Positions 2,339 to 31,596 of a stretch of DNA of 31,596 nucleotides are shown here, piece after piece. The DNA lies in the IMG/VR virus record IMGVR_UViG_3300031963_007865, positions 1-31,596 of that record, one strand, 5' to 3'. Position 1 is the stretch's first letter; every line of letters begins with the position of its first letter. The position numbers and the translations under genes are program-made. The notes beneath the pieces are model-generated. The model saw nothing but the letters and a program-made list of their open reading frames with translations. It was not told where the DNA came from and did no database searches. This stretch comes from a virus.

Positions 2339-3019
2339 CTATCCGTGTCTTTGATTTTCTGGATGCATTATTGTCATAGAATCAACATTGACTGTTGGTG
2401 GAAGTTCAATAATCCATCTAATGGCTTCAGCCACATCTTTTGCTTGTATTGCTATATCGTTTTTAACTTTTTGATTAGTATCTATGCTTCCTGGAGCTAT
2501 TTGAGAAATCTTAATTCCAGATCCAGACATTTCTATTCTTAGCGTTTCTGCCAAAGATATGGCACCACGTTTTGCAGTTGAGTAGTGTCCACCTTTTTTA
2601 TATGGATAGTATCCACAAATAGAAGTTATAATTATTATATCACCATAGCCATTTTTTTTCATAATGGGAATAACCATTTTAGAAAGACTCATTGGAGAAA
2701 CAACATTTAAATTATATGCGTACTGCCATGACTCAGGCAAATCATTTTCTACTAAATATGATCCGCTGCCACCACCCGCATTATTAACTAATGCCACTAT
2801 CTCTTTATCTTTTATATAATTTTGAAAATTATCATATAAAGAAAAGTCTGTAACATCCATTTGATAAGGATAAATGTTTTTATATTCAGAAAAAATAACA
2901 TTCATTCTTTCAATGTTTCTAGAAACAGCGATAACGTTATACTTCGAGGAAAGGAGCTTGCATGTTTCTTCCCCGACACCACGGCTTGCCCCAGTTACAA
3001 TTACATATTTATTTAACAA
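2339..3019 (-). CDS. Short-chain dehydrogenase/reductase (SDR)
   Basis: The 226-residue protein is a classical SDR, an NAD(P)-dependent oxidoreductase with a Rossmann fold. TGASRGVG (residues 9-16) is the cofactor loop, NNAG follows strand 4, the catalytic Tyr-Lys pair sits in YSTAK, and APGSIDT is the post-catalytic motif. The start is a TTG four bases after the lysin stop. It places the first beta strand (KYVIVTGAS) immediately at the N-terminus as usual, although the ribosome-binding site is weak and translational coupling to the lysin gene is likely. The substrate cannot be read from sequence. Sugars or lipid carbonyls are typical. Given the glycan genes elsewhere, a sugar-nucleotide step is possible but unproven. 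Confidence 0.88.
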   Translation of the reverse strand: MLNKYVIVTGASRGVGEETCKLLSSKYNVIAVSRNIERMNVIFSEYKNIYPYQMDVTDFSLYDNFQNYIKDKEIVALVNNAGGGSGSYLVENDLPESWQYAYNLNVVSPMSLSKMVIPIMKKNGYGDIIIITSICGYYPYKKGGHYSTAKRGAISLAETLRIEMSGSGIKISQIAPGSIDTNQKVKNDIAIQAKDVAEAIRWIIELPPTVNVDSMTIMHPENQRHG

Positions 3020-4209: not shown

Positions 4210-4785
4210 TTAAAGATTTATGCATCTTAATCTTGCAATTGAGTACAGTCTATAATGCTCAGAAAGATCCATCTGCTTTATATAATCTAAATTATTTATA
4301 TACTTTGGTTTAGCCTTAGAAGAAATTAGCTTAAAGGGGTTTTGTGTTTCTTTATACCAAGCCTCGTATTCAGAAAAAGAATCTGATTTAATATCTAAAG
4401 TTCCATTAAATTTTTCACAGATGTATCTTACAACTTTTTCTGTGTCTTCTTTTAAATCTTCAAATTTAAAAAATATTGAGCAGTTTTCTAACATGAACCT
4501 ATAATGGTCTAAGTATTGCTGTGCCCTATACATAAACATTCCGTTGTCTTCCATTGTATTGATTGATGAAAGGCAGTCTACTGGATTTCTAACTATTGTT
4601 ATTATTGGATCAGACAAAATTTTTTGATAAAGTATTTCTGTAGGGTCATTTGCTTCTTTTATATCGTAATGAGTAAAGTTAACCTTCAAATTTGTATTTG
4701 TATTTATATACCAGTATAGCCAATGTCTTCCAGATCTTGGATAGGTTAACAGAGATATATTATTATCTTTACTTAGCTCTAGCAT
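4210..4785 (-). CDS. Sulfotransferase-like protein
   Basis: This 191-residue protein resembles PAPS-dependent sulfotransferases, which move a sulfuryl group to sugars, lipids or tyrosines. The 5'-phosphosulfate-binding loop is LTYPRSGRHWLYWYI (about residues 13-27), and the 3'-phosphate-binding segment is ITIVRNPVDCLSS (about 62-74). Between and after them the spacing matches the family, and FFKFEDLKED resembles the conserved strand-turn seen around residue 110. At 191 residues it is shorter than most full enzymes, so the acceptor region may be reduced. No membrane segment is seen, unlike Golgi enzymes. It follows the SGNH-like gene by 18 bases with only a weak ribosome-binding site. Virion or host surface glycan sulfation is the likely use; the acceptor is unknown. 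Confidence 0.8.
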   Translation of the reverse strand: MLELSKDNNISLLTYPRSGRHWLYWYINTNTNLKVNFTHYDIKEANDPTEILYQKILSDPIITIVRNPVDCLSSINTMEDNGMFMYRAQQYLDHYRFMLENCSIFFKFEDLKEDTEKVVRYICEKFNGTLDIKSDSFSEYEAWYKETQNPFKLISSKAKPKYINNLDYIKQMDLSEHYRLYSIARLRCINL

Positions 4786-5641: not shown

Positions 5642-6241
5642 TTAATTGTTATAGGTTCTTTCTTCTGGCTTGTAGCCAGTTATATGAGCCCATTTCATAT
5701 TAACCTCATGTAGTTGATCAGGGCTTGACACATTCATTTCTTGATCATCTAAATCTAAATAATGTAGGAATACCATTTTTAAATAATCCCCATCATTGAA
5801 TTCTTTATGCATTCTCCAGTGATCTTGGTCCCTTGCATTTATTAGCAATGCACTGTTATCTATGAGAGTGTACGGTATTCCTTCAACATATATATCCCAA
5901 GACACATTCGAATCCAATTGACACAATATAGTCCCAGTAAAAGCACATGTGTCTTTGTGTGGACCCAGTTGTGGCATTCCAAATTCATTATTATATTCTA
6001 CAAGTGTGAAGTATTTAAATGAATACCTTCTTTGATCTTTATCGGAAAATTCTTTAATTAAATCATTTGCTTTACTCAATATGCTATGAGGCAGATTGTC
6101 TATATCTTTATTAGAATAATCTAGCCTTGTTCTGCCCAAAAATGTTTGTACTTCAGTATCATCTTTTTTTAAGGAAACTGCAGTTTCGATATCTTTTATT
6201 TCATCCTTAGTAAAAACATTATAGATTATGTTATTTTTCAT
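5642..6241 (-). CDS. 2OG-Fe(II) oxygenase-like protein
   Basis: This 199-residue protein has the signature of iron- and 2-oxoglutarate-dependent dioxygenases, which hydroxylate amino-acid side chains, sugars or nucleobases. The iron ligands H95 and D97 are in GPHKDTC, the distal histidine is H141 or H145 in DQDHWRMHKEF, and K155 in DYLKMVFLHY is ten residues after H145, where the 2OG carboxylate binder is expected. The N-terminal half is helical and divergent. The substrate is unknown. It is the third such enzyme in the window and only distantly similar to the other two. GAGGGAGAAAT precedes the ATG, and an extended -10 lies 54 bases upstream. Confidence 0.75.
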   Translation of the reverse strand: MKNNIIYNVFTKDEIKDIETAVSLKKDDTEVQTFLGRTRLDYSNKDIDNLPHSILSKANDLIKEFSDKDQRRYSFKYFTLVEYNNEFGMPQLGPHKDTCAFTGTILCQLDSNVSWDIYVEGIPYTLIDNSALLINARDQDHWRMHKEFNDGDYLKMVFLHYLDLDDQEMNVSSPDQLHEVNMKWAHITGYKPEERTYNN

Positions 6242-9294: not shown

Positions 9295-9954
9295 TTATTC
9301 CATTTCTTTATATAGTTTTTTTAAGCCTTTTAATGTGCCAATGTCCATGTACTGTCCCCCTGGTTTTACGGCACGAATATCTAAATTCATATCAATCCAT
9401 TCCTGAATTTGTTTGCCTGGATGATCTAAATCTGCATCTACATATCTTATCAAATTTTTTCTAAATAGCATAGTGCCCCACATATACTCATATTCGCAGT
9501 CTTGAACTTTATCTTTAGAAGACAGAACCTTGTCTCCAGATAAAGATATCTGCCCAACTCTTCCCTTTAGGTCATCTGTACATTCCCATGCTCCGAGAAC
9601 TACATCCCCCTCTGACTTAATCATTTCTTTATATATATTTGTCTGGGCACCCAATATAAATGTATCTGGCATTCCAATAAAAACTGTGTGGTTATGTTCT
9701 CCTACCATAAATTTTACGGCATCAGACATAGTTGAAGGCTCACGCACAATAAGTTTAATATTCATATCCATATTCTGAATAATAGGAACCCATTCAGCTC
9801 TTGTTGATACCCTAACTTCATCACAAACTTCTAGCATTTGCTCTACATGCCATTGTAAAAGGGATCTCTCATCTGAAATTGGTAAGCAAAATTTAGGTAT
9901 GCCTCCAACTCTAGATGCTTTACCAGATGCTGGTAGAATTCCTATAACACTCAT
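9295..9954 (-). CDS. Sugar-phosphate nucleotidyltransferase
   Basis: The 219-residue protein is a GT-A-like NTP transferase that would activate a sugar phosphate to an NDP-sugar. The N-terminal loop is ILPASGKASRVGGIPKFCLP, with the variant ASGKASR in place of the usual GGxGTR and the conserved PK. The metal-binding aspartate is D97 in IGMPDTFI. VVLGAWECTD and EYMWGTMLF match later sheet strands, and PGGQYMDIGTLKGL resembles the family's closing Y-x-D-I-G-T motif. It is shorter than RmlA because it lacks the extended C-terminal region. It overlaps the glycosyltransferase stop by 4 bases, so the two probably work in one pathway. The base and sugar used are unknown. Confidence 0.85.
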   Translation of the reverse strand: MSVIGILPASGKASRVGGIPKFCLPISDERSLLQWHVEQMLEVCDEVRVSTRAEWVPIIQNMDMNIKLIVREPSTMSDAVKFMVGEHNHTVFIGMPDTFILGAQTNIYKEMIKSEGDVVLGAWECTDDLKGRVGQISLSGDKVLSSKDKVQDCEYEYMWGTMLFRKNLIRYVDADLDHPGKQIQEWIDMNLDIRAVKPGGQYMDIGTLKGLKKLYKEME

Positions 9955-10712
9955 TTATTATTTCCTTGACTTTCTTGCACATCTTTAACAGTTAAATTTT
10001 CAAAAATTGAATCTTTTTTCCATGCTACGTAATTTTCTAATCTTCCGTCTCCCCAATAAAGGTGCTTAACATCTTTATCTAATAACCTTCGAGCATCGTC
10101 TCCTCCAAAGCTAAAAAATTTATTTTCTTTTGCTACTGGTAAATTATTGAATTCAATTGTGCGCTGCTTTAAATCTCCGTTATACCCATCTTCTATGCTC
10201 ATTGATTTAAATAAGCTATCGGTAAACATTGCTACGTCTGTATAGTAATGAACCATATGCTGTTGCTCTACAATACCGTTTCTTGCTCTTTCTACAGCCA
10301 TGCTAATAGCATCTTCTAAAAACTTATGTCCTTTAGAAGAAGCAATTACCTGAGTGGCATACCATGGTGTGTTTCCTTCTAAATCAAGAATCATGTCGTA
10401 TTTAGGGTCTAACCAAGTATCTATTGGATTTATGCACTCTGTATCTAAATCAGCGTACACTCCACCATTAATATAAAGAATAGCAAATCTCCACAAACCA
10501 GCCTTCATTACTCCGAGTGGATACTTCATGTATGTATCAAAAACTTCTCCTCCAAATTCAGTTCTAAAAAAGTCTTCTCTGTCTTGACCGCTCATATATC
10601 CATGAGACCAATCTGGATTTATATTTTTCCAAGTTTCTAAACTTTGCTGTGCCTGTAAAGGCAAGCCCTCGATAGGCGTCTCGTATGTTTGCCATATTGT
10701 TTTTGATATCAT
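9951..10712 (-). CDS. Glycosyltransferase family 32-like (DXD sugar transferase)
   Basis: The 253-residue protein begins ISKTIWQTYETP, the hallmark start of the GT32/OCH1-like family, and carries FAILYINGGVYADLDTECI at about residues 77-94, where D88 and D90 form the DXD metal and nucleotide-sugar site. It transfers a hexose from a nucleotide sugar to a glycan or protein acceptor. Length fits bacterial capsular members. No membrane segment is seen, so it acts in the cytoplasm. AGGAGC precedes the ATG. It sits between the FkbM methyltransferase and the nucleotidyltransferase with 4-base overlaps on both sides, forming a three-gene glycan cassette. The acceptor could be a virion protein or host surface glycan. 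Confidence 0.88.
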   Translation of the reverse strand: MISKTIWQTYETPIEGLPLQAQQSLETWKNINPDWSHGYMSGQDREDFFRTEFGGEVFDTYMKYPLGVMKAGLWRFAILYINGGVYADLDTECINPIDTWLDPKYDMILDLEGNTPWYATQVIASSKGHKFLEDAISMAVERARNGIVEQQHMVHYYTDVAMFTDSLFKSMSIEDGYNGDLKQRTIEFNNLPVAKENKFFSFGGDDARRLLDKDVKHLYWGDGRLENYVAWKKDSIFENLTVKDVQESQGNNK

Positions 10713-11272
10713 ATATTTGTGCTCCTAATTACCTCTGGGTCTATCCACCAATCCTCAAACACTCTGTCTGGGGAACTATCATCAACATTTTCTACTAAAA
10801 GCTTATATCCTAAAGAAGACAATATATCGATTGACTCTTTTTTAATCTCTTTGTTTGATGGATCTGCATACAAATCGTGTTCATATGTTATTACAGAAAA
10901 TCTATATTCATCTAAGGGCATTTGTTTTAATGCTGCTAGGGTTTGATGAGCTGGTTCTATGTCGAGCTGTAAGTAGTCTATTTGTTTTGGAAATTTGTTT
11001 TCTTTAAAATATTTTAAATAGTCAAATTTTGTAGCATCTGTAGAAATGCATTTATTTTTTCTTACATTATTATAATTATCAACTAGGCTTTGATCCCAAT
11101 CAAAACCTACTCCATTCCAATCATACTCTGTTTCCAATAAGTAGGTATTATTATATATTATAGGATCATTAGAGCCAACTTCAACATACCAACCATTTCT
11201 TTTTTCATTTAAAACATTTAATACAAATGAATCCTGCTTGGCTTGCCCATTGCCATTTTTATATATTTTCAT
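10709..11272 (-). CDS. FkbM-like methyltransferase
   Basis: This 187-residue protein looks like an FkbM-type SAM-dependent O-methyltransferase. The cofactor loop is GWYVEVGSNDPIIYNNTYLLE (about residues 27-47), the second acidic position lies in GVGFDWDQS, and YLQLDIEPAHQTLAALK corresponds to the family's motif after strand 4. It ends at VFEDWWIDP. Such enzymes methylate sugar hydroxyls in glycan clusters. It overlaps the following GT32 gene by 4 bases and the preceding 48-residue HTH gene by an ATGA, so the cassette is translationally coupled to recombination genes. The substrate is not readable from sequence. Confidence 0.82.
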   Translation of the reverse strand: MKIYKNGNGQAKQDSFVLNVLNEKRNGWYVEVGSNDPIIYNNTYLLETEYDWNGVGFDWDQSLVDNYNNVRKNKCISTDATKFDYLKYFKENKFPKQIDYLQLDIEPAHQTLAALKQMPLDEYRFSVITYEHDLYADPSNKEIKKESIDILSSLGYKLLVENVDDSSPDRVFEDWWIDPEVIRSTNI

Positions 11273-13369: not shown

Positions 13370-13463
13370 TTTTTATCCCTCTGCCTATTTTGTCTACAAA
13401 AGCTCTCAGTGCGTATCCTGTTGCAATTCCCACAATAATACTCATCATAAATACTTCTATCAT
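13356..13463 (-). CDS. 35-residue single-span membrane peptide
   Basis: A short frame starts with an ATGA overlap on the oxygenase stop (ATG 13463, TGA 13462-13460) and ends inside the next gene. Its product, beginning MIEVFMMSIIVGIATGYAL and ending RAFVDKIGRGIKNDRR, is one hydrophobic helix with a basic C-terminus, the form of small phage membrane peptides and pinholin-like proteins. It fills a 90-base gap that otherwise lacks a gene in this tightly packed operon. No strong ribosome-binding site is present, so expression would depend on coupling. The function is unknown. Confidence 0.55.
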   Translation of the reverse strand: MIEVFMMSIIVGIATGYALRAFVDKIGRGIKNDRR

Positions 13464-14422
13464 AAATCTCTGCCATCTATATATATATCTTGATTTTCAT
13501 TAATGTACAGTGGAAAAAGGTTTTTGCCTTCTATTGGCTTTTGTCCAGCCCTTACAACTTGTCTACCTACCTCACCAGAATCTACTGTTTTTTTAATTCT
13601 ATCCAGCTCCATATTATTCCATTTTTCTTCACCATGCTCTAGCACACCTTTTTGCCAGGCTTCTGATCCTTTATAATAATGTATGGCAAATGTTCTAAAA
13701 AATATTTTATTATTACCAGATCTAACTGCCTTTGCAGAATGCCAATAAGGTTTTCCAGAAGGGAAAATTGTAATATCCCCAGCTTTTGGCTTATATGTTA
13801 TAAGTTTATTTTCTCTTTCATCTATAAACTCAATTTCGCCACCTTCATAGTCATCATTTAGATAAACTGTAAAAGTTATAATCTGTTTTCCTCCTGAAGA
13901 CTCTATTTTATGTTCATGAAAATCAGTATGATATCCAATAGCTAACTCATTATCAATAACTATATTATGTTTTAAAATTTCAATTACACCTAATCCAAGA
14001 GAATCATAGATGTCGTCAGTTAGTTCTGTGCTTTTTATTCCATAAGGCCAGCCGTCAATATGATCTTCGTCAGACATATAATCCTCATGAACTTTGCGTA
14101 ATAGATTTACTATTTTTTGTTTCATTATAAATTCTTTTTTATTATCTGAATTTTCTGTAACTATTAGCCCTCTATTATTTAAAATACTTTTTGAACCATA
14201 GGTGTACCATGGCGTCCAACTATTAATTATACTTATGTCATCTTTTTCCATTGGCTGAATGCCGTGTTTATCTCTATAAGAAGACTCTTCTGGAGGTATT
14301 GCATAGTAGCTCTCAATACTATTTTCTGAATCTTTAATTATTTTTAGCATTTCATCAACTTCTTCAGACGAAAGCATATCTTTGTATACAACAACTTTAG
14401 GCATTATCTTAATTTTTTTCAT
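13460..14422 (-). CDS. 2OG-Fe(II) oxygenase, prolyl-4-hydroxylase-like
   Basis: The 320-residue protein has a P4H-type double-stranded beta-helix in residues about 155-255. Iron ligands are H165 and D167 in IGYHTDFHEH and H228 in PYWHSAKAV, and R243 in FFRTFAIHYY would bind 2-oxoglutarate. VYLNDDYEGGEIEF and AGDITIFPSG are the strongly conserved strands of the family. The N-terminal 150 residues are a separate mostly helical region and the last 60 are unassigned. It overlaps the resolvase-like gene by 14 bases. The target is not known. Peptidyl proline, a nucleobase or a sugar are all options. The insertion of such a gene among recombination genes is typical of phage cargo. Confidence 0.85.
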   Translation of the reverse strand: MKKIKIMPKVVVYKDMLSSEEVDEMLKIIKDSENSIESYYAIPPEESSYRDKHGIQPMEKDDISIINSWTPWYTYGSKSILNNRGLIVTENSDNKKEFIMKQKIVNLLRKVHEDYMSDEDHIDGWPYGIKSTELTDDIYDSLGLGVIEILKHNIVIDNELAIGYHTDFHEHKIESSGGKQIITFTVYLNDDYEGGEIEFIDERENKLITYKPKAGDITIFPSGKPYWHSAKAVRSGNNKIFFRTFAIHYYKGSEAWQKGVLEHGEEKWNNMELDRIKKTVDSGEVGRQVVRAGQKPIEGKNLFPLYINENQDIYIDGRDL

Positions 14423-24285: not shown

Positions 24286-24416
24286 TTTCCTAGTTTACTC
24301 GATTCCCTATTAATCATCCAGCGCTTTCCACACATCACACAATATAATTCTATATGTAGCTTCTGAGAAAAAACTCTATCTATGAATACTCTTCCATTAC
24401 ATTTTTTGCACCACAT
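24231..24416 (-). CDS. Small zinc-ribbon protein
   Basis: The 61-residue protein has two CxxC knuckles, C3-x2-C6 in MWCKKCNG and C26-x2-C29 in YCVMCGKRW, separated by a strand-rich segment, a typical zinc ribbon. A Lys/Ser-rich tail follows and overlaps the HTH gene by 55 bases. The ATG overlaps the phosphoesterase stop (TAATG). It is probably a nucleic-acid-binding accessory, although no partner can be shown. Confidence 0.7.
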   Translation of the reverse strand: MWCKKCNGRVFIDRVFSQKLHIELYCVMCGKRWMINRESSKLGKWLDQKESEYKKDFSISS

Positions 24417-25216
24417 TATACTTTAAAAACCTTTCCATCTACAACGCATGAATAGTCTGGTGAAACATGAATCATTTGAATGTGAGGATAGTCATTTACA
24501 ATATGAGCAATAGCAAAACCCTTTTGCCAGTCATGATGCTGACTATACTTCATTCCGTCACTCTTTTCATCACACATGTGACCAATTTCATATCCACGCA
24601 ATGTTTCTCCTTCTCCATTATTTCGCAACTCATATGTTACCATATGTGAAGCAATTCTATGAGAGTGTCCACGAATTAACGATACCTGTAGATCTTCCAT
24701 ATCTTTTCTTACAGCTCCTGTGGCTGATACAGATAATCCATGGTGCACATGGATATCTCCAAAGCGTCGCTTTGGCAACTCATTATAATAAATATATTCA
24801 TATCCTAATGAATCTAAACTCCATAAAGATTCTGGTGTTACTTCGCTAATATATTCTGGAAGTTTTGCGTCTACATAATTAAATACTCTAATGTCATGAT
24901 TACCTAATGCTGAAAAAAGTTGTGCATCTGGAAGCATGTCTCTAGTCTTTGCGTAGAAATCTCTAGCACCCTTAGCTTCATGTCGCATCATTGGAACAAT
25001 TAAGTCTCCGCTTTCAGTCTTATGATAATTTAAAAACTCTGCAGATCTACCCTCAGTATATTTACTATAGCATGCCTGATCATCTGTATCGCCTAAGTAA
25101 TCTACTACATCTGGCTTAAACCATTTCATAACCTTAAACCAAAGCTCGATCATCTTATCATCCTGATACGGGAACTGCTGATCTGACGATAACATCCATT
25201 TTAAATCGTTTGACAT
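24416..25216 (-). CDS. Calcineurin-like metallophosphoesterase
   Basis: The 266-residue protein has the calcineurin-like two-metal fold. GDTDD (D43) and GNHDIR (N106, H107, D108) are clear, HVHHG (H156-H159) follows, and GHSHR (H184, H186) closes the site. The first motif, usually D-x-H, is D12-Q-Q14 here, so one metal ligand is changed. Phage members may act on DNA ends, cyclic nucleotides or RNA. The substrate is unknown. It is the first gene of the replication operon, 18 bases after the terminator at 25234-25258, and AAAGG precedes the ATG. The changed ligand could alter metal preference but does not by itself make the enzyme inactive. Confidence 0.88.
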   Translation of the reverse strand: MSNDLKWMLSSDQQFPYQDDKMIELWFKVMKWFKPDVVDYLGDTDDQACYSKYTEGRSAEFLNYHKTESGDLIVPMMRHEAKGARDFYAKTRDMLPDAQLFSALGNHDIRVFNYVDAKLPEYISEVTPESLWSLDSLGYEYIYYNELPKRRFGDIHVHHGLSVSATGAVRKDMEDLQVSLIRGHSHRIASHMVTYELRNNGEGETLRGYEIGHMCDEKSDGMKYSQHHDWQKGFAIAHIVNDYPHIQMIHVSPDYSCVVDGKVFKV

Positions 25217-26455: not shown

Positions 26456-27151
26456 TTATAGCATATTATTTCTTTTATTTAAATCCGTCCAGAATATTGA
26501 AACTGTATATCTGGTTCCACTTATAACTGCTTTTACTCCGTGTAGAGTATTTTCGTCACCCTTAAATGTCACTAACATTCCTGGCTCTGGCTTTATAGAA
26601 AAATTGTTATATTGAGGAAACCAAAGCTCTCCGCCTTCATAATCATTATTTAAGTATATTAAAGAAGAAAAATGTTTTGTTTGGAACCTTCCCTCAAATG
26701 ACTCAAGGTACGTCTTAGATATATTATTTTCTGCTAGCATATCGTAATCGTGGTGACCTTCATTTGATATAAAATAATCTAGGTGTGGGGCTTGCTCCCT
26801 TCCAACCCTCCATCTATTGACAAGATACTGCTCTGTTTTTACCTTAACACCAAACTTGTCTTCGGTAACCAATTTAGTTTTATTCTCAATATCTTTATAA
26901 AAATCTCTATCTAGTGGATATCTGCCATAAAATTCTTCATGTGTAAAGTTAATGCACATTCCGTCCCACTGTTTAATAGATGGCCATAAAATTTTATCAA
27001 CATTTTCTTCTTTTGGATAATTAACTTTAAAATCAAGTCCCCACAGATCTTCTGAAAAATTTTTTGTTTCTAAAATTTTATCAATATCTGACTTATTAAT
27101 AAAATTTTTTACTATTCTAATGTTTGGCTTTTCTAGGTCTATGTATCTCAT
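26456..27151 (-). CDS. Prolyl-4-hydroxylase-like 2OG-Fe(II) oxygenase beside fibre gene
   Basis: The 231-residue protein (ATG 27151, with AGGATAGAC upstream; the frame's extra N-terminus overlaps the fibre stop) is a P4H-type dioxygenase. Iron ligands are H123 and D125 in APHLDYF and H204 in NTLHGVKAV. R214 in GTRYTVSIFW lies ten residues on, where 2-oxoglutarate is held. IYLNNDYEGGELWFP and PGMLVTFKG are the family's core strands. Family members hydroxylate peptidyl proline or other side chains. It lies two bases after a fibre gene whose product has a repeated PPSPPVN tract, an attractive substrate. It resembles the oxygenase at 14422 in these strands (both have DYEGGE) but has a different N-terminus. 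Confidence 0.88.
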   Translation of the reverse strand: MRYIDLEKPNIRIVKNFINKSDIDKILETKNFSEDLWGLDFKVNYPKEENVDKILWPSIKQWDGMCINFTHEEFYGRYPLDRDFYKDIENKTKLVTEDKFGVKVKTEQYLVNRWRVGREQAPHLDYFISNEGHHDYDMLAENNISKTYLESFEGRFQTKHFSSLIYLNNDYEGGELWFPQYNNFSIKPEPGMLVTFKGDENTLHGVKAVISGTRYTVSIFWTDLNKRNNML

Positions 27152-27153
27152 GT

Positions 27154-28941
27154 CTATCCTATACACCTGTCGCAGTCCCAATATGTTCCAGTTGGACAGT
27201 TGAATGTAGGCTCAAAGCAATTAGAAGGTGGGCTTGCTGGTGGGCTTGGTGGATTTACTGGTGGGCTTGGTGGATTTACTGGTGGGCTTGGTGGATTTAC
27301 TGGTGGAGTTGGCGGATCTACTGGTGGACTTGATGCTGGTGGAGTTGATGATGCTGGGGTTGCCGAAATTGTTCCAGAAGAAACAACTAAGGAGCTTCCA
27401 GCTGAATTAGATGCTGTTGCAAAAGCTTTAAATATATTTACTGGTGCAGTAGCATCATATGTAGTTATTGTATATGTGCATTCTGATGCTCCTCCCACTG
27501 AAAATGATACTATGTCACTAGTTGCAGTAGGAATAGATGGATGAATAGCGGTTCTTATAACTACGCTATATGATGTAGGAGACCCCGACCAGCCTGAAGT
27601 TGAAGCTGTAATTACGCTACCTGGTGTGCTGCCTCCTGTAAGAGAAACGGATCCACCTGTAGGAACTACTACTGCTGCCGTCCAAATAGCATAAAGAGTA
27701 AAGCTTTCTGTTGGAGTAAATACAGCCCCTGCTTGATAAGTATAGTATAAATCTCCAGAAATTGGATTTCTCCAATTACTAAATGTGTATCCATCCCTTG
27801 TTGGAGTTGGTGCTGTAACAGATTGTCCAGAATTAACTGTTGTTGATGTAGGTGATACAGTGCCACCATTTGCATTCCATGTAATTGTATATTGTACTAC
27901 TGGCGGCTCAAGAACTATAGTATTTGAATTAGCTGATGCAGATCCCCCAGCATTACTTGCAGTAACTGCAACATAATATTCTCTTAGATATGATCCTGAA
28001 TAGGCGTCTGAAGTATCTGCTTTTGTAACATCCCTTAAAAGAGTAATTGGCTGAGGGTCTGTTTGATACCATCTATATCTATAGGATGTTGGGCTGTTAT
28101 TCCATGATCCTGATGTCACTGACATATTGTTGTTTGAAGAAATTGATAGCACTGGTGCAGATATATTAGAAGGCGGAGAAATTGCAGCACTTGTTGTAAG
28201 GCTATAGTTTGCAGATGCTGTATTTCCAGTAGAAGATGTTACCGTTACCGTTCCAGTATAAGTAGTTCCTGCAGTAAGCCCCGTTTTTGAAACAGATGTT
28301 TCATTAGTTCCAGATCCACTAAATGTACCCGTTGATGACCAAGAGCTCTGATTTGTTGAGGTCCAATTAATCGTTCCTGCTGTCTGAGAAACTCCAGTAT
28401 TTGAACCCATTGTAATTGTTGGAGTTACTGGGGATACAACATTTTGTATAGTTACAGTACTACTTGTAGAAACAGTCTGTAGCGATGGAGATACATTAGT
28501 ATTTGTTGCAGTCACAACAAATCTAAATGATCCTGTTGATGTTGCTGAAGAAGATGGAAAATCTCCTATAATTGGTGTATATGTTTTTGTATTAGAGGAG
28601 CCAACAGAAGGATTGGTTATAGTTCCAGTTGCATTAGATCCATTTCCATCTAACCATTGAAAGCCGTTATAGTATTGAAATTTATATGTTAGTACTGTAG
28701 CATTTGTCCATCTATAATTAGTTCCAGTAAGAGTGGCTGGCATAGTTGAAGAGCTTGTTGTTAATGTTACTGTTTGTGCTATTGATGGTTCATTTGAAGG
28801 TGCAAGAAAACCAAAGATGCTTTTCCATACTCCGCCGCTTCTTATATAAGCTTTAGTTATAGTCTTCCATGCTCCGCCTGATCTAAGGTATGCTTTATTA
28901 ACATTTTTCCATTGAGATCCAGATCTTAATTTAATTGACAT
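27154..28941 (-). CDS. Long fibre/adhesin: WK repeats, Ig-like domains, Pro-rich tail
   Basis: This 595-residue virion protein starts with three 14-residue repeats of the RSGGxWKxIxKAYI type (about 6-46), a known start of actinophage minor tail proteins. Then come several Fn3/Ig-like beta domains rich in Ser and Thr (about 50-345), an InlB B-repeat-like module (TITWNANGGTVSP to FTLYAIW, about 350-420) and another Ig-like domain. A proline tract (PPTPPVNPPSPPVNPPSPP and on, about 533-573) is encoded by 21-bp tandem repeats. The protein ends with a 21-residue Cys-rich tail containing CFEPTFNC, YWDCDRC. It likely binds host glycans. The P4H-like gene follows by two bases. TTAGGTTTAT precedes the ATG. 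Confidence 0.85.
   Translation of the reverse strand: MSIKLRSGSQWKNVNKAYLRSGGAWKTITKAYIRSGGVWKSIFGFLAPSNEPSIAQTVTLTTSSSTMPATLTGTNYRWTNATVLTYKFQYYNGFQWLDGNGSNATGTITNPSVGSSNTKTYTPIIGDFPSSSATSTGSFRFVVTATNTNVSPSLQTVSTSSTVTIQNVVSPVTPTITMGSNTGVSQTAGTINWTSTNQSSWSSTGTFSGSGTNETSVSKTGLTAGTTYTGTVTVTSSTGNTASANYSLTTSAAISPPSNISAPVLSISSNNNMSVTSGSWNNSPTSYRYRWYQTDPQPITLLRDVTKADTSDAYSGSYLREYYVAVTASNAGGSASANSNTIVLEPPVVQYTITWNANGGTVSPTSTTVNSGQSVTAPTPTRDGYTFSNWRNPISGDLYYTYQAGAVFTPTESFTLYAIWTAAVVVPTGGSVSLTGGSTPGSVITASTSGWSGSPTSYSVVIRTAIHPSIPTATSDIVSFSVGGASECTYTITTYDATAPVNIFKAFATASNSAGSSLVVSSGTISATPASSTPPASSPPVDPPTPPVNPPSPPVNPPSPPVNPPSPPASPPSNCFEPTFNCPTGTYWDCDRCIG
27238..27321 (-). repeat. 21-bp tandem repeats in the fibre gene
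   Basis: Three identical 21-base units (27238-27258, 27259-27279, 27280-27300) are followed by a diverged fourth (27301-27321). Each unit is exactly seven codons and encodes VNPPSPP, with the fourth reading closer to VDPPTPP. Exact copies with an in-frame length mean that slippage would lengthen or shorten the proline tract by seven residues without a frameshift. Confidence 0.9.
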
Positions 28942-30838: not shown

Positions 30839-31596
30839 TTAGAAGCTCAAATCCAGCTTATATTCTATATCTACCTGTCTACCGTTTAATTTTGTTAACG
30901 GAGTTGAAAGTATAGATCTGCTTATCAAACCGTATATTGGGTCAAATGTATCTTCGTCATTTATTCTTATTCCATCAAAAAAGACTTGTGATATCCCACT
31001 GGACGGCGTTATTAGGATTCCTATCTTAGTAATGTTATTTTTTTGTGGACTACCAACCGCATTTGAAAATAATGTATTCATTGATACTTCTGCAATTTTA
31101 TCTCCAGTTGTAGAGCTAGAAATTTGTGCATAGTAATAGTCTGTATCAGTAGTATAAAACTTAATTCTAAAAGATGAAAGATTTGAATCATATTGTCTAT
31201 ATGCAACTGTAAGCGTATCAGCAGAGCTATATCCTGAAAAGTCTAATAGTGCATTTGTCTTGTATTCATTAGCAGCGCTATTATTGGAAGACATTCCTAC
31301 TAAGAAGTCTCCAATTCTTGCATTAGAGGTAACCTCTTGCGCTGGTGAGCCAAGGGTGTCTACCCAGTCTGCTGGATTAGAAAAGTCAGATATAAATCTA
31401 CTATCATAATTATTGGTTCCAGTTTTTGTTGAGGGATAAAGACCAATCTCTTTAATAATTCCAGATATATCTTGTGGTATAGTGGTTTTAAATATAGCAG
31501 AGTATGTAAATATTGGCTGACTATTTGAGTCCAATCCGTCTTGCTGTATATCAGTGCTTGAAAGAGTTACTTCAGTTCTATAAAACTCAAATCCTA
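30839..31596 (-). CDS. Virion structural protein, 5' end beyond window
   Basis: This frame is open to the right edge, so the N-terminus is missing. The TTG at 31534 is an internal Leu codon and not a start. At least 252 residues are visible. The sequence is beta-rich with VTLSSTDIQQDGL, TYSAIFKTTIPQDISGIIKEIGLYP and repeated strand patterns of a jelly-roll or concanavalin-like domain (about 75-200: FSNPADWV, TLTVAYRQYDS, FRIKFYTTD, VFFDGIRIND). The C-terminus, PLTKLNGRQVDIEYKLDLSF, is typical of phage baseplate or fibre-adaptor proteins. It belongs to the tail cluster together with the next two genes. No enzymatic motif is seen. Confidence 0.75.
   Translation of the reverse strand, partial: GFEFYRTEVTLSSTDIQQDGLDSNSQPIFTYSAIFKTTIPQDISGIIKEIGLYPSTKTGTNNYDSRFISDFSNPADWVDTLGSPAQEVTSNARIGDFLVGMSSNNSAANEYKTNALLDFSGYSSADTLTVAYRQYDSNLSSFRIKFYTTDTDYYYAQISSSTTGDKIAEVSMNTLFSNAVGSPQKNNITKIGILITPSSGISQVFFDGIRINDEDTFDPIYGLISRSILSTPLTKLNGRQVDIEYKLDLSF

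Follow-up and report, generated by a model that had tools for sequence, protein, structure and literature searches.

The tail-fibre gene of a freshwater phage ends in a proline-rich spacer of SPPVNPP units that is probably hydroxylated on proline by a prolyl 4-hydroxylase (P4H)-type enzyme encoded directly beside it. Comparison of related sequences strongly supports a coupling of Pro-tract fibres with P4H-type enzymes far beyond chance over many phages, and their joint gain and loss in relatives suggests chemical modification of fibres by the phages themselves. In aquatic viruses, P4H-type genes rank with the most abundant "auxiliary" genes, and the comparison points to a concrete substrate class for them in the Pro tracts of tail fibres. 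If this is true, the fibres of abundant freshwater phages would be chemically modified by phage enzymes, with a bearing on adsorption, stability, and the prediction of fibres from sequence.

The stretch of DNA analyzed here (the window) is the entire linear IMG/VR record IMGVR_UViG_3300031963_007865 of 31,596 bases, which covers the phage genome only partly, syntenic relatives extending up to 110-120 kb. An actinophage is likely, since the phrog_9616 gene has its matches in phages of Streptomyces and Rhodococcus. A conserved metallophosphoesterase gene (24416-25216, (-) strand; phrog_221, 5.8e-54), which has 591 relatives in IMG/VR, served as the anchor for finding syntenic sister phages. Among the other genes of the window is an unusual item of cargo, a short-chain dehydrogenase (2339-3019; PF00106, 2.8e-38) that has an SNase gene on one side and a CHAP lysin on the other.

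The fibre/adhesin gene (27154-28941, (-) strand; an open reading frame of 595 aa) matches PF09479 (1.1e-12) and, at its N-terminus, phrog_36019/25859. It lies 3' of another fibre-like gene and of a phrog_9983 tail protein gene (30839-31594, (-) strand; 7.6e-40), which places the fibre and the adjoining oxygenase in the tail region. The protein runs from N-terminal LRSG-W-K repeats through an Ig-like region and a Flg_new (List_Bact_rpt) domain to the Pro tract and a Cys-rich cap. A sequence-only reading had put the terminal tract at 40 residues; in translation it comprises 44 (residues 531-574; 27220-27351, (-) strand), built of SPP/VNPP units with the sequence SSTPPASSPPVDPPTPPVNPPSPPVNPPSPPVNPPSPPASPPSN and a maximum of 18 Pro per 30 residues, and it is followed by the cap, CFEPTFNCPTGTYWDCDRCIG (27157-27219, (-) strand), which is conserved in the relative L006 as CFDPPNECPSGTYWDCNACIG. 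At the DNA level the tract repeats a 21-bp unit in tandem, in 4.6 copies with 93% match (27237-27332). A collagen-like fibre is ruled out, since the tract is without Gly and thus without a Gly-X-Y repeat. No match to the fibre was found among cultured phages by tblastn.

The oxygenase gene (26456-27151, (-) strand; 231 aa) starts with an ATG at 27151, two bases past the fibre stop. An alternative TTG start, lying 30 bases ahead of this ATG, is likewise open, but the relatives L006 and L328 favor the ATG. The protein scores 38.8 bits against PF13640 (1.9e-9, cut-off 27), the residues named in the sequence-only reading are intact, and the spacing that it gave for the two genes is confirmed. The iron triad HxD...H (H123, D125, and H204, numbered from the ATG) is invariant in 27 homologues, and the basic 2OG-binding residue, R214 (H204+10), is Arg or Lys in most of them. 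P4Hs typically have Lys at the 2OG site, and Arg in its place is found in non-prolyl relatives too, so R214 alone is no proof of prolyl specificity. A profile built from the 27 homologues and searched against the PDB ranked the Bacillus anthracis P4H 3itq first (5.9e-20), followed by a prolyl 3-hydroxylase, PKHD enzymes, and the P4Hs of PBCV-1 and Chlamydomonas. The AlphaFold2 model (pLDDT 86.8, pTM 0.86) has a double-stranded beta-helix fold nearest to P4Hs, and the top 24 Foldseek matches in the PDB are all prolyl hydroxylases, including PBCV-1 vCPH and the algal P4H with (Ser-Pro)5. The P4H-like character proposed from the sequence alone is thus borne out by both profile and fold, which make prolyl 4-hydroxylases the nearest solved relatives. 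As modeled, the oxygenase is P4H-type by fold; the fold does not fix the target residue, and members of PF13640 hydroxylate residues besides proline too. The PKHD-type Fe2+ dioxygenase equivalog of NCBIfam (YbiX/PiuC) was rejected at 22.5 bits against a curated cut-off of 180. An AlkB-type DNA repair dioxygenase is disfavored, AlkBH8 giving only a partial profile match (1.3e-3, versus 6e-20 for P4H).

A second oxygenase of the PF13640 family, 320 aa long, is encoded in the window's recombination/replication region (13460-14422, (-) strand; 2.2e-12); it is 39% identical to the fibre-adjoining enzyme over 54 aa and has recA, RuvC-like, and Cas4-like genes as neighbors with no fibre close by. An open reading frame at 5642-6241 was considered as a third oxygenase on a weak phrog_2954 match and set aside, having no score in the family models.

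The same fibre/oxygenase pair is present unchanged in several other contigs. In L006 and L014 the oxygenase is 93% identical to that of the window, the fibre is only 57-69% identical, and the tract is (PPASS)n in place of PPVNPPS. A change of tract beside an enzyme so well conserved would fit either a promiscuous enzyme or a tract that is not its substrate; the element kept between the two repeat units is the S-P-P or P-P site, and hydroxylation would most likely fall at such sites. The subfamily of the window enzyme has four members at 46-100% identity, three of which are found at Pro-tract fibres (the window, L006, and L328); the fourth, L104 (46% identical), has no fibre nearby.

The strongest test of coupling is provided by an array locus of sister phages, located through an anchor gene, rather than by the window's own pair. 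Whole-record searches showed that sister phages carry groups of five to eight PF13640 genes elsewhere in the genome. At the anchored locus a Pro-tract fibre is present in 14 of 14 genomes with an oxygenase array and in none of the 10 without, and each array whose 5' side is covered follows a Pro-tract fibre (FFPP or SFFAPP). In a tree built from this locus's anchor protein, the array label switches six times, and well-supported branches force five or more of the switches; L365 and L371, for example, have an array and an SFFAPP fibre, and L380, L381, and L383 have neither, with anchors at least 80% identical. This joint presence and absence through repeated switches indicates that tract and enzymes move together. 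The several divergent oxygenases of an array possibly act at different sites or on different residues of the tract. In L361 and L368 two more oxygenase clusters lie away from any Pro-tract gene.

Several features of these arrays may be recorded in their own right. In L359-L375 (e.g., L366:3479-11752), the five to eight divergent PF13640 oxygenases stand directly 3' of FFPP/SFFAPP fibres and are broken by a DUF6065-like pair (phrog_7084). Genes between the Pro-tract fibre and the array (L360:9583-10158 and L364:3581-4150) resemble aspartyl/asparaginyl hydroxylases by eye, the L360 gene having the motif WYEIN...H...RVHLIID, and NCBIfam gave no confirmation of that identity. A Gp23 search for a T4-like origin of the array contigs was silent, as was its control. 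A tblastn search of cultured phages with the DUF6065 gene and the oxygenases of the arrays gave only distant matches, to cyanophage oxygenases that do not adjoin fibres, and none of the phages searched carried the full cassette.

The oxygenase could be an unrelated DNA-repair, nucleotide, or metabolic 2OG enzyme lodged in a hypervariable tail region, given that metaviromic islands often hold Fe(II) oxygenases (PMC3909814), that an AlkB-like repair role has been proposed for those of cyanophages (PMC2984593), that cyanophage PF13640 genes adjoin uvsX, nrd, and similar genes, and that the second PF13640 gene of the window is near recA and L104 is away from fibres. This is nevertheless improbable in view of the co-presence and co-absence of Pro tracts at one anchored locus through five or more switches, the tight same-strand gaps of 9-100 bp, and the weak scores of AlkB-family chains (1e-3) beside that of P4H (6e-20).

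The coupling extends beyond the anchored locus. With a Pro tract defined by a hand-chosen threshold of at least 9 Pro in 30 residues, open reading frames called mechanically, and loci that are non-independent, 34 of 57 genes lying directly on the 5' side of an oxygenase run's first member had such a tract at loci sampled by the oxygenase motif, compared with 8 of 405 others (p = 1e-28) and with 8 of 53 fibres that sister phages carry at the window's slot (p = 1.6e-6). At loci sampled by the FFPP pattern, there were 107 in-frame tract genes, and for 74 of them the fetched stretch contained an oxygenase, in many cases on the same strand and 9-100 bp past the tract gene; the contigs are fragments, and absence from one is weak evidence. 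A scan for the general PPVNPP pattern (PPV[ND]PPxPPV) returned mostly unrelated Pro-rich proteins, with an oxygenase for 4 of 52, and three of these four belong to the window's own family; the association is therefore not with Pro-richness alone. The 52 non-redundant pairs of Pro gene and oxygenase within 200 bp contain nine oxygenase clusters at 40% identity (12 at 50%), and the metallophosphoesterase of the clade was present in only 3 of 40 tested records; a single lineage is thus insufficient as an explanation, though many of these records are fragments. Bacterial and archaeal genomes, scanned for FFPP, gave six stretches, of which the real tract genes resemble viral contigs in bins, two of them with oxygenases near. 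Proline is the sole feature common to most of the oxygenase-adjoining tract types (SPPVNPP, PPASS, TPTPTP, FFPP, and SFFAPP). The adjacency anticipated by the sequence-only reading for homologues is accordingly seen across many phages, and it is loose at the window's own slot.

That slot lies between the fibre and the phrog_9616 gene. In sister phages, an adjacent oxygenase was present at two of eight distinct Pro-tract fibres and at two of 45 non-Pro fibres (Fisher p = 0.10), so that six of the eight Pro-tract fibres are without one and a non-Pro fibre sits at two of the four slots that bear an oxygenase. L018, L029, L032, L081, L084, and L088 carry FFPP fibres with no oxygenase next to them, although L029 has an oxygenase array elsewhere in its genome (G017). 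L079/L082 (one oxygenase) and L051 (three) have their enzymes behind non-Pro fibres, whose tails consist of TIN/TID or NTIATQ (TIATQ) repeats with a C-terminal Hint-like domain. By its own terms the earlier suggestion would be refuted by related phages in which the oxygenase is present and the fibre lacks a Pro tract; such cases, together with the Pro-tract fibres that have no oxygenase beside them, weaken it in part. The enzymes at the non-Pro fibres share only 20-24% identity with that of the window in a 27-row alignment and therefore belong to different subfamilies. Hint-like C-terminal domains after tandem repeats, with oxygenase neighbors, were seen at L051:2884-6012, L079:3833-7906, L328:7945-10620, and L105:4661-5998; being intein-like autoprocessing domains, they make fibre-tip processing or ligation possible.

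These non-Pro tails lend some weight to a different target, in which the oxygenase would act on the fibre or its maturation at residues other than the tract prolines, such as those of the repeats, the cap, or Hint-domain proteins, and the shared factor would be low-complexity fibre tails as such. Arrays of five to eight divergent oxygenases seem more than one prolyl specificity would need, and Phe/Tyr recur as regularly as Pro in FFPP/YFPP tracts. We regard such a target as unlikely, proline being the only feature shared by the great majority of oxygenase-adjoining tract types, the nearest solved relatives being prolyl hydroxylases, and the enzymes at non-Pro tails belonging to other subfamilies.

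Tract type appears to be matched to enzyme type when fibre tails are compared at this slot. A PF11397 glycosyltransferase, in the place of the window's oxygenase, accompanies five of six poly-Thr-tract fibres and one of 47 others (p = 1e-5). The poly-Thr fibres so followed have 16-27 Thr per 30 residues (L021, L043, L045, L053, and L090), and in L051 a PF11397 gene comes directly after the three oxygenases. The flanks of L079 and L081 are closely alike, and fibre tail and enzyme differ together between the two, which is read as a cassette swap. A fibre-tip cassette of low-complexity spacer plus its own modifying enzyme is the most economical account. Whether freshwater phages in general carry swappable fibre-tip cassettes of this kind, amounting to a system of virion post-translational modification so far undescribed in phages, we judge evenly balanced; Pro tracts would be served by between one and eight 2OG-Fe(II) hydroxylases, poly-Thr tracts by a PF11397 glycosyltransferase, and TIN repeats with a Hint domain again by hydroxylases, and the window would be the minimal one-enzyme form.

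It had further been proposed from the sequence that the hydroxylated fibre is glycosylated by a GT32 enzyme and sulfated by a sulfotransferase. A full extensin-like pathway of this kind is very improbable, even with all three gene types within the window and the L051 PF11397 gene directly after three oxygenases. The GT32-like glycosyltransferase (9951-10712, (-) strand; PF04488 7.5e-14, 52.6 bits, cut-off 23) and the sulfotransferase-like gene (4210-4785, (-) strand; PF00685 at 21.5 bits, below its cut-off of 22) lie 16-23 kb from the fibre with no positional link to it. The PF11397 family includes the Skp1-hydroxyproline GlcNAc transferase, and its genes in this clade pair with poly-Thr rather than Pro-tract fibres; none was seen in the window. 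The algal P4H is a secretory-pathway enzyme, with glycosylation of hydroxyproline afterwards. The extensin analogy thus holds for the SPP/PP sequence and fails for a glycosyltransferase linked to the Pro-tract gene, as found in extensins/HRGPs, the GT32 gene being 16 kb away. The GT32-like gene overlaps a weak FkbM methyltransferase gene (9951-11272 for the two), possibly a glycan-modifying pair.

For the favored reading, in which the oxygenase is a phage prolyl-hydroxylase-type enzyme and has as its substrate the Pro-rich stalk tract in the product of the neighboring 5' fibre gene, the enzyme would be co-expressed with the fibre and act before virion assembly. Hydroxylation might yield a stiffer polyproline-II spacer, alter solubility or binding, or prime the tract for further decoration; the fibre as substrate, proline as the residue, and every such physiological effect are what we infer from the observations above.

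No report of phage fibre hydroxylation, or of a link to Pro-tract fibres, was found in the open-access literature. In a Baltic virome survey (2022), P4HA was among the abundant viral genes, its viral use "remains cryptic," and collagen-like fibres are mentioned (PMC9301287); by its title, Eriksson et al. (1999), cited there, gives evidence that viral proteins contain 4-hydroxyproline. A DNA repair role has been suggested for cyanophage P4H-domain genes (PMC2984593), metaviromic islands abound in tail fibres and in Fe(II) oxygenases, the two being tabulated jointly under host recognition (PMC3909814), and according to a paper on Escherichia coli prophage collagen, prolyl hydroxylases for collagen are missing from bacteria and viruses (PMC3368898).

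Among known systems, the 2OG-Fe(II) oxygenases of cyanophages (phrog_61, T4-GC clusters) are abundant phage genes that also belong to the PF13640 superfamily; they differ in lying in repair, nucleotide, or metabolic neighborhoods in the cultured cyanophages inspected, not beside Pro-tract fibres. PHROG and GenBank labels look misleading for some genes of ACG-2014f cyanophage records (e.g., KJ019148.1 147417-147746), which are named "DNA endonuclease V" or "ferrochelatase" yet match 2OG-Fe(II) oxygenases. The P4H of B. anthracis (PDB 3itq/5hv0/5v7y) is the best profile and fold match to the window enzyme, at 19-20% identity, but is a cellular enzyme with EF-Tu as substrate according to the 5v7y entry title. 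The vCPH of the Chlorella virus PBCV-1 (PDB 5c5t/5c5u) is a viral P4H that shares the fold and the HxD...H site; it is 16-18% identical, comes from a virus of a eukaryotic alga rather than a tailed phage, and in the part of the published account available to us is not reported in an operon-like pairing with a fibre gene. The Chlamydomonas P4H (PDB 3gze) is a eukaryotic secretory-pathway enzyme, but it has the same fold, and its bound (Ser-Pro)5 is the substrate type closest to SPPVNPP.
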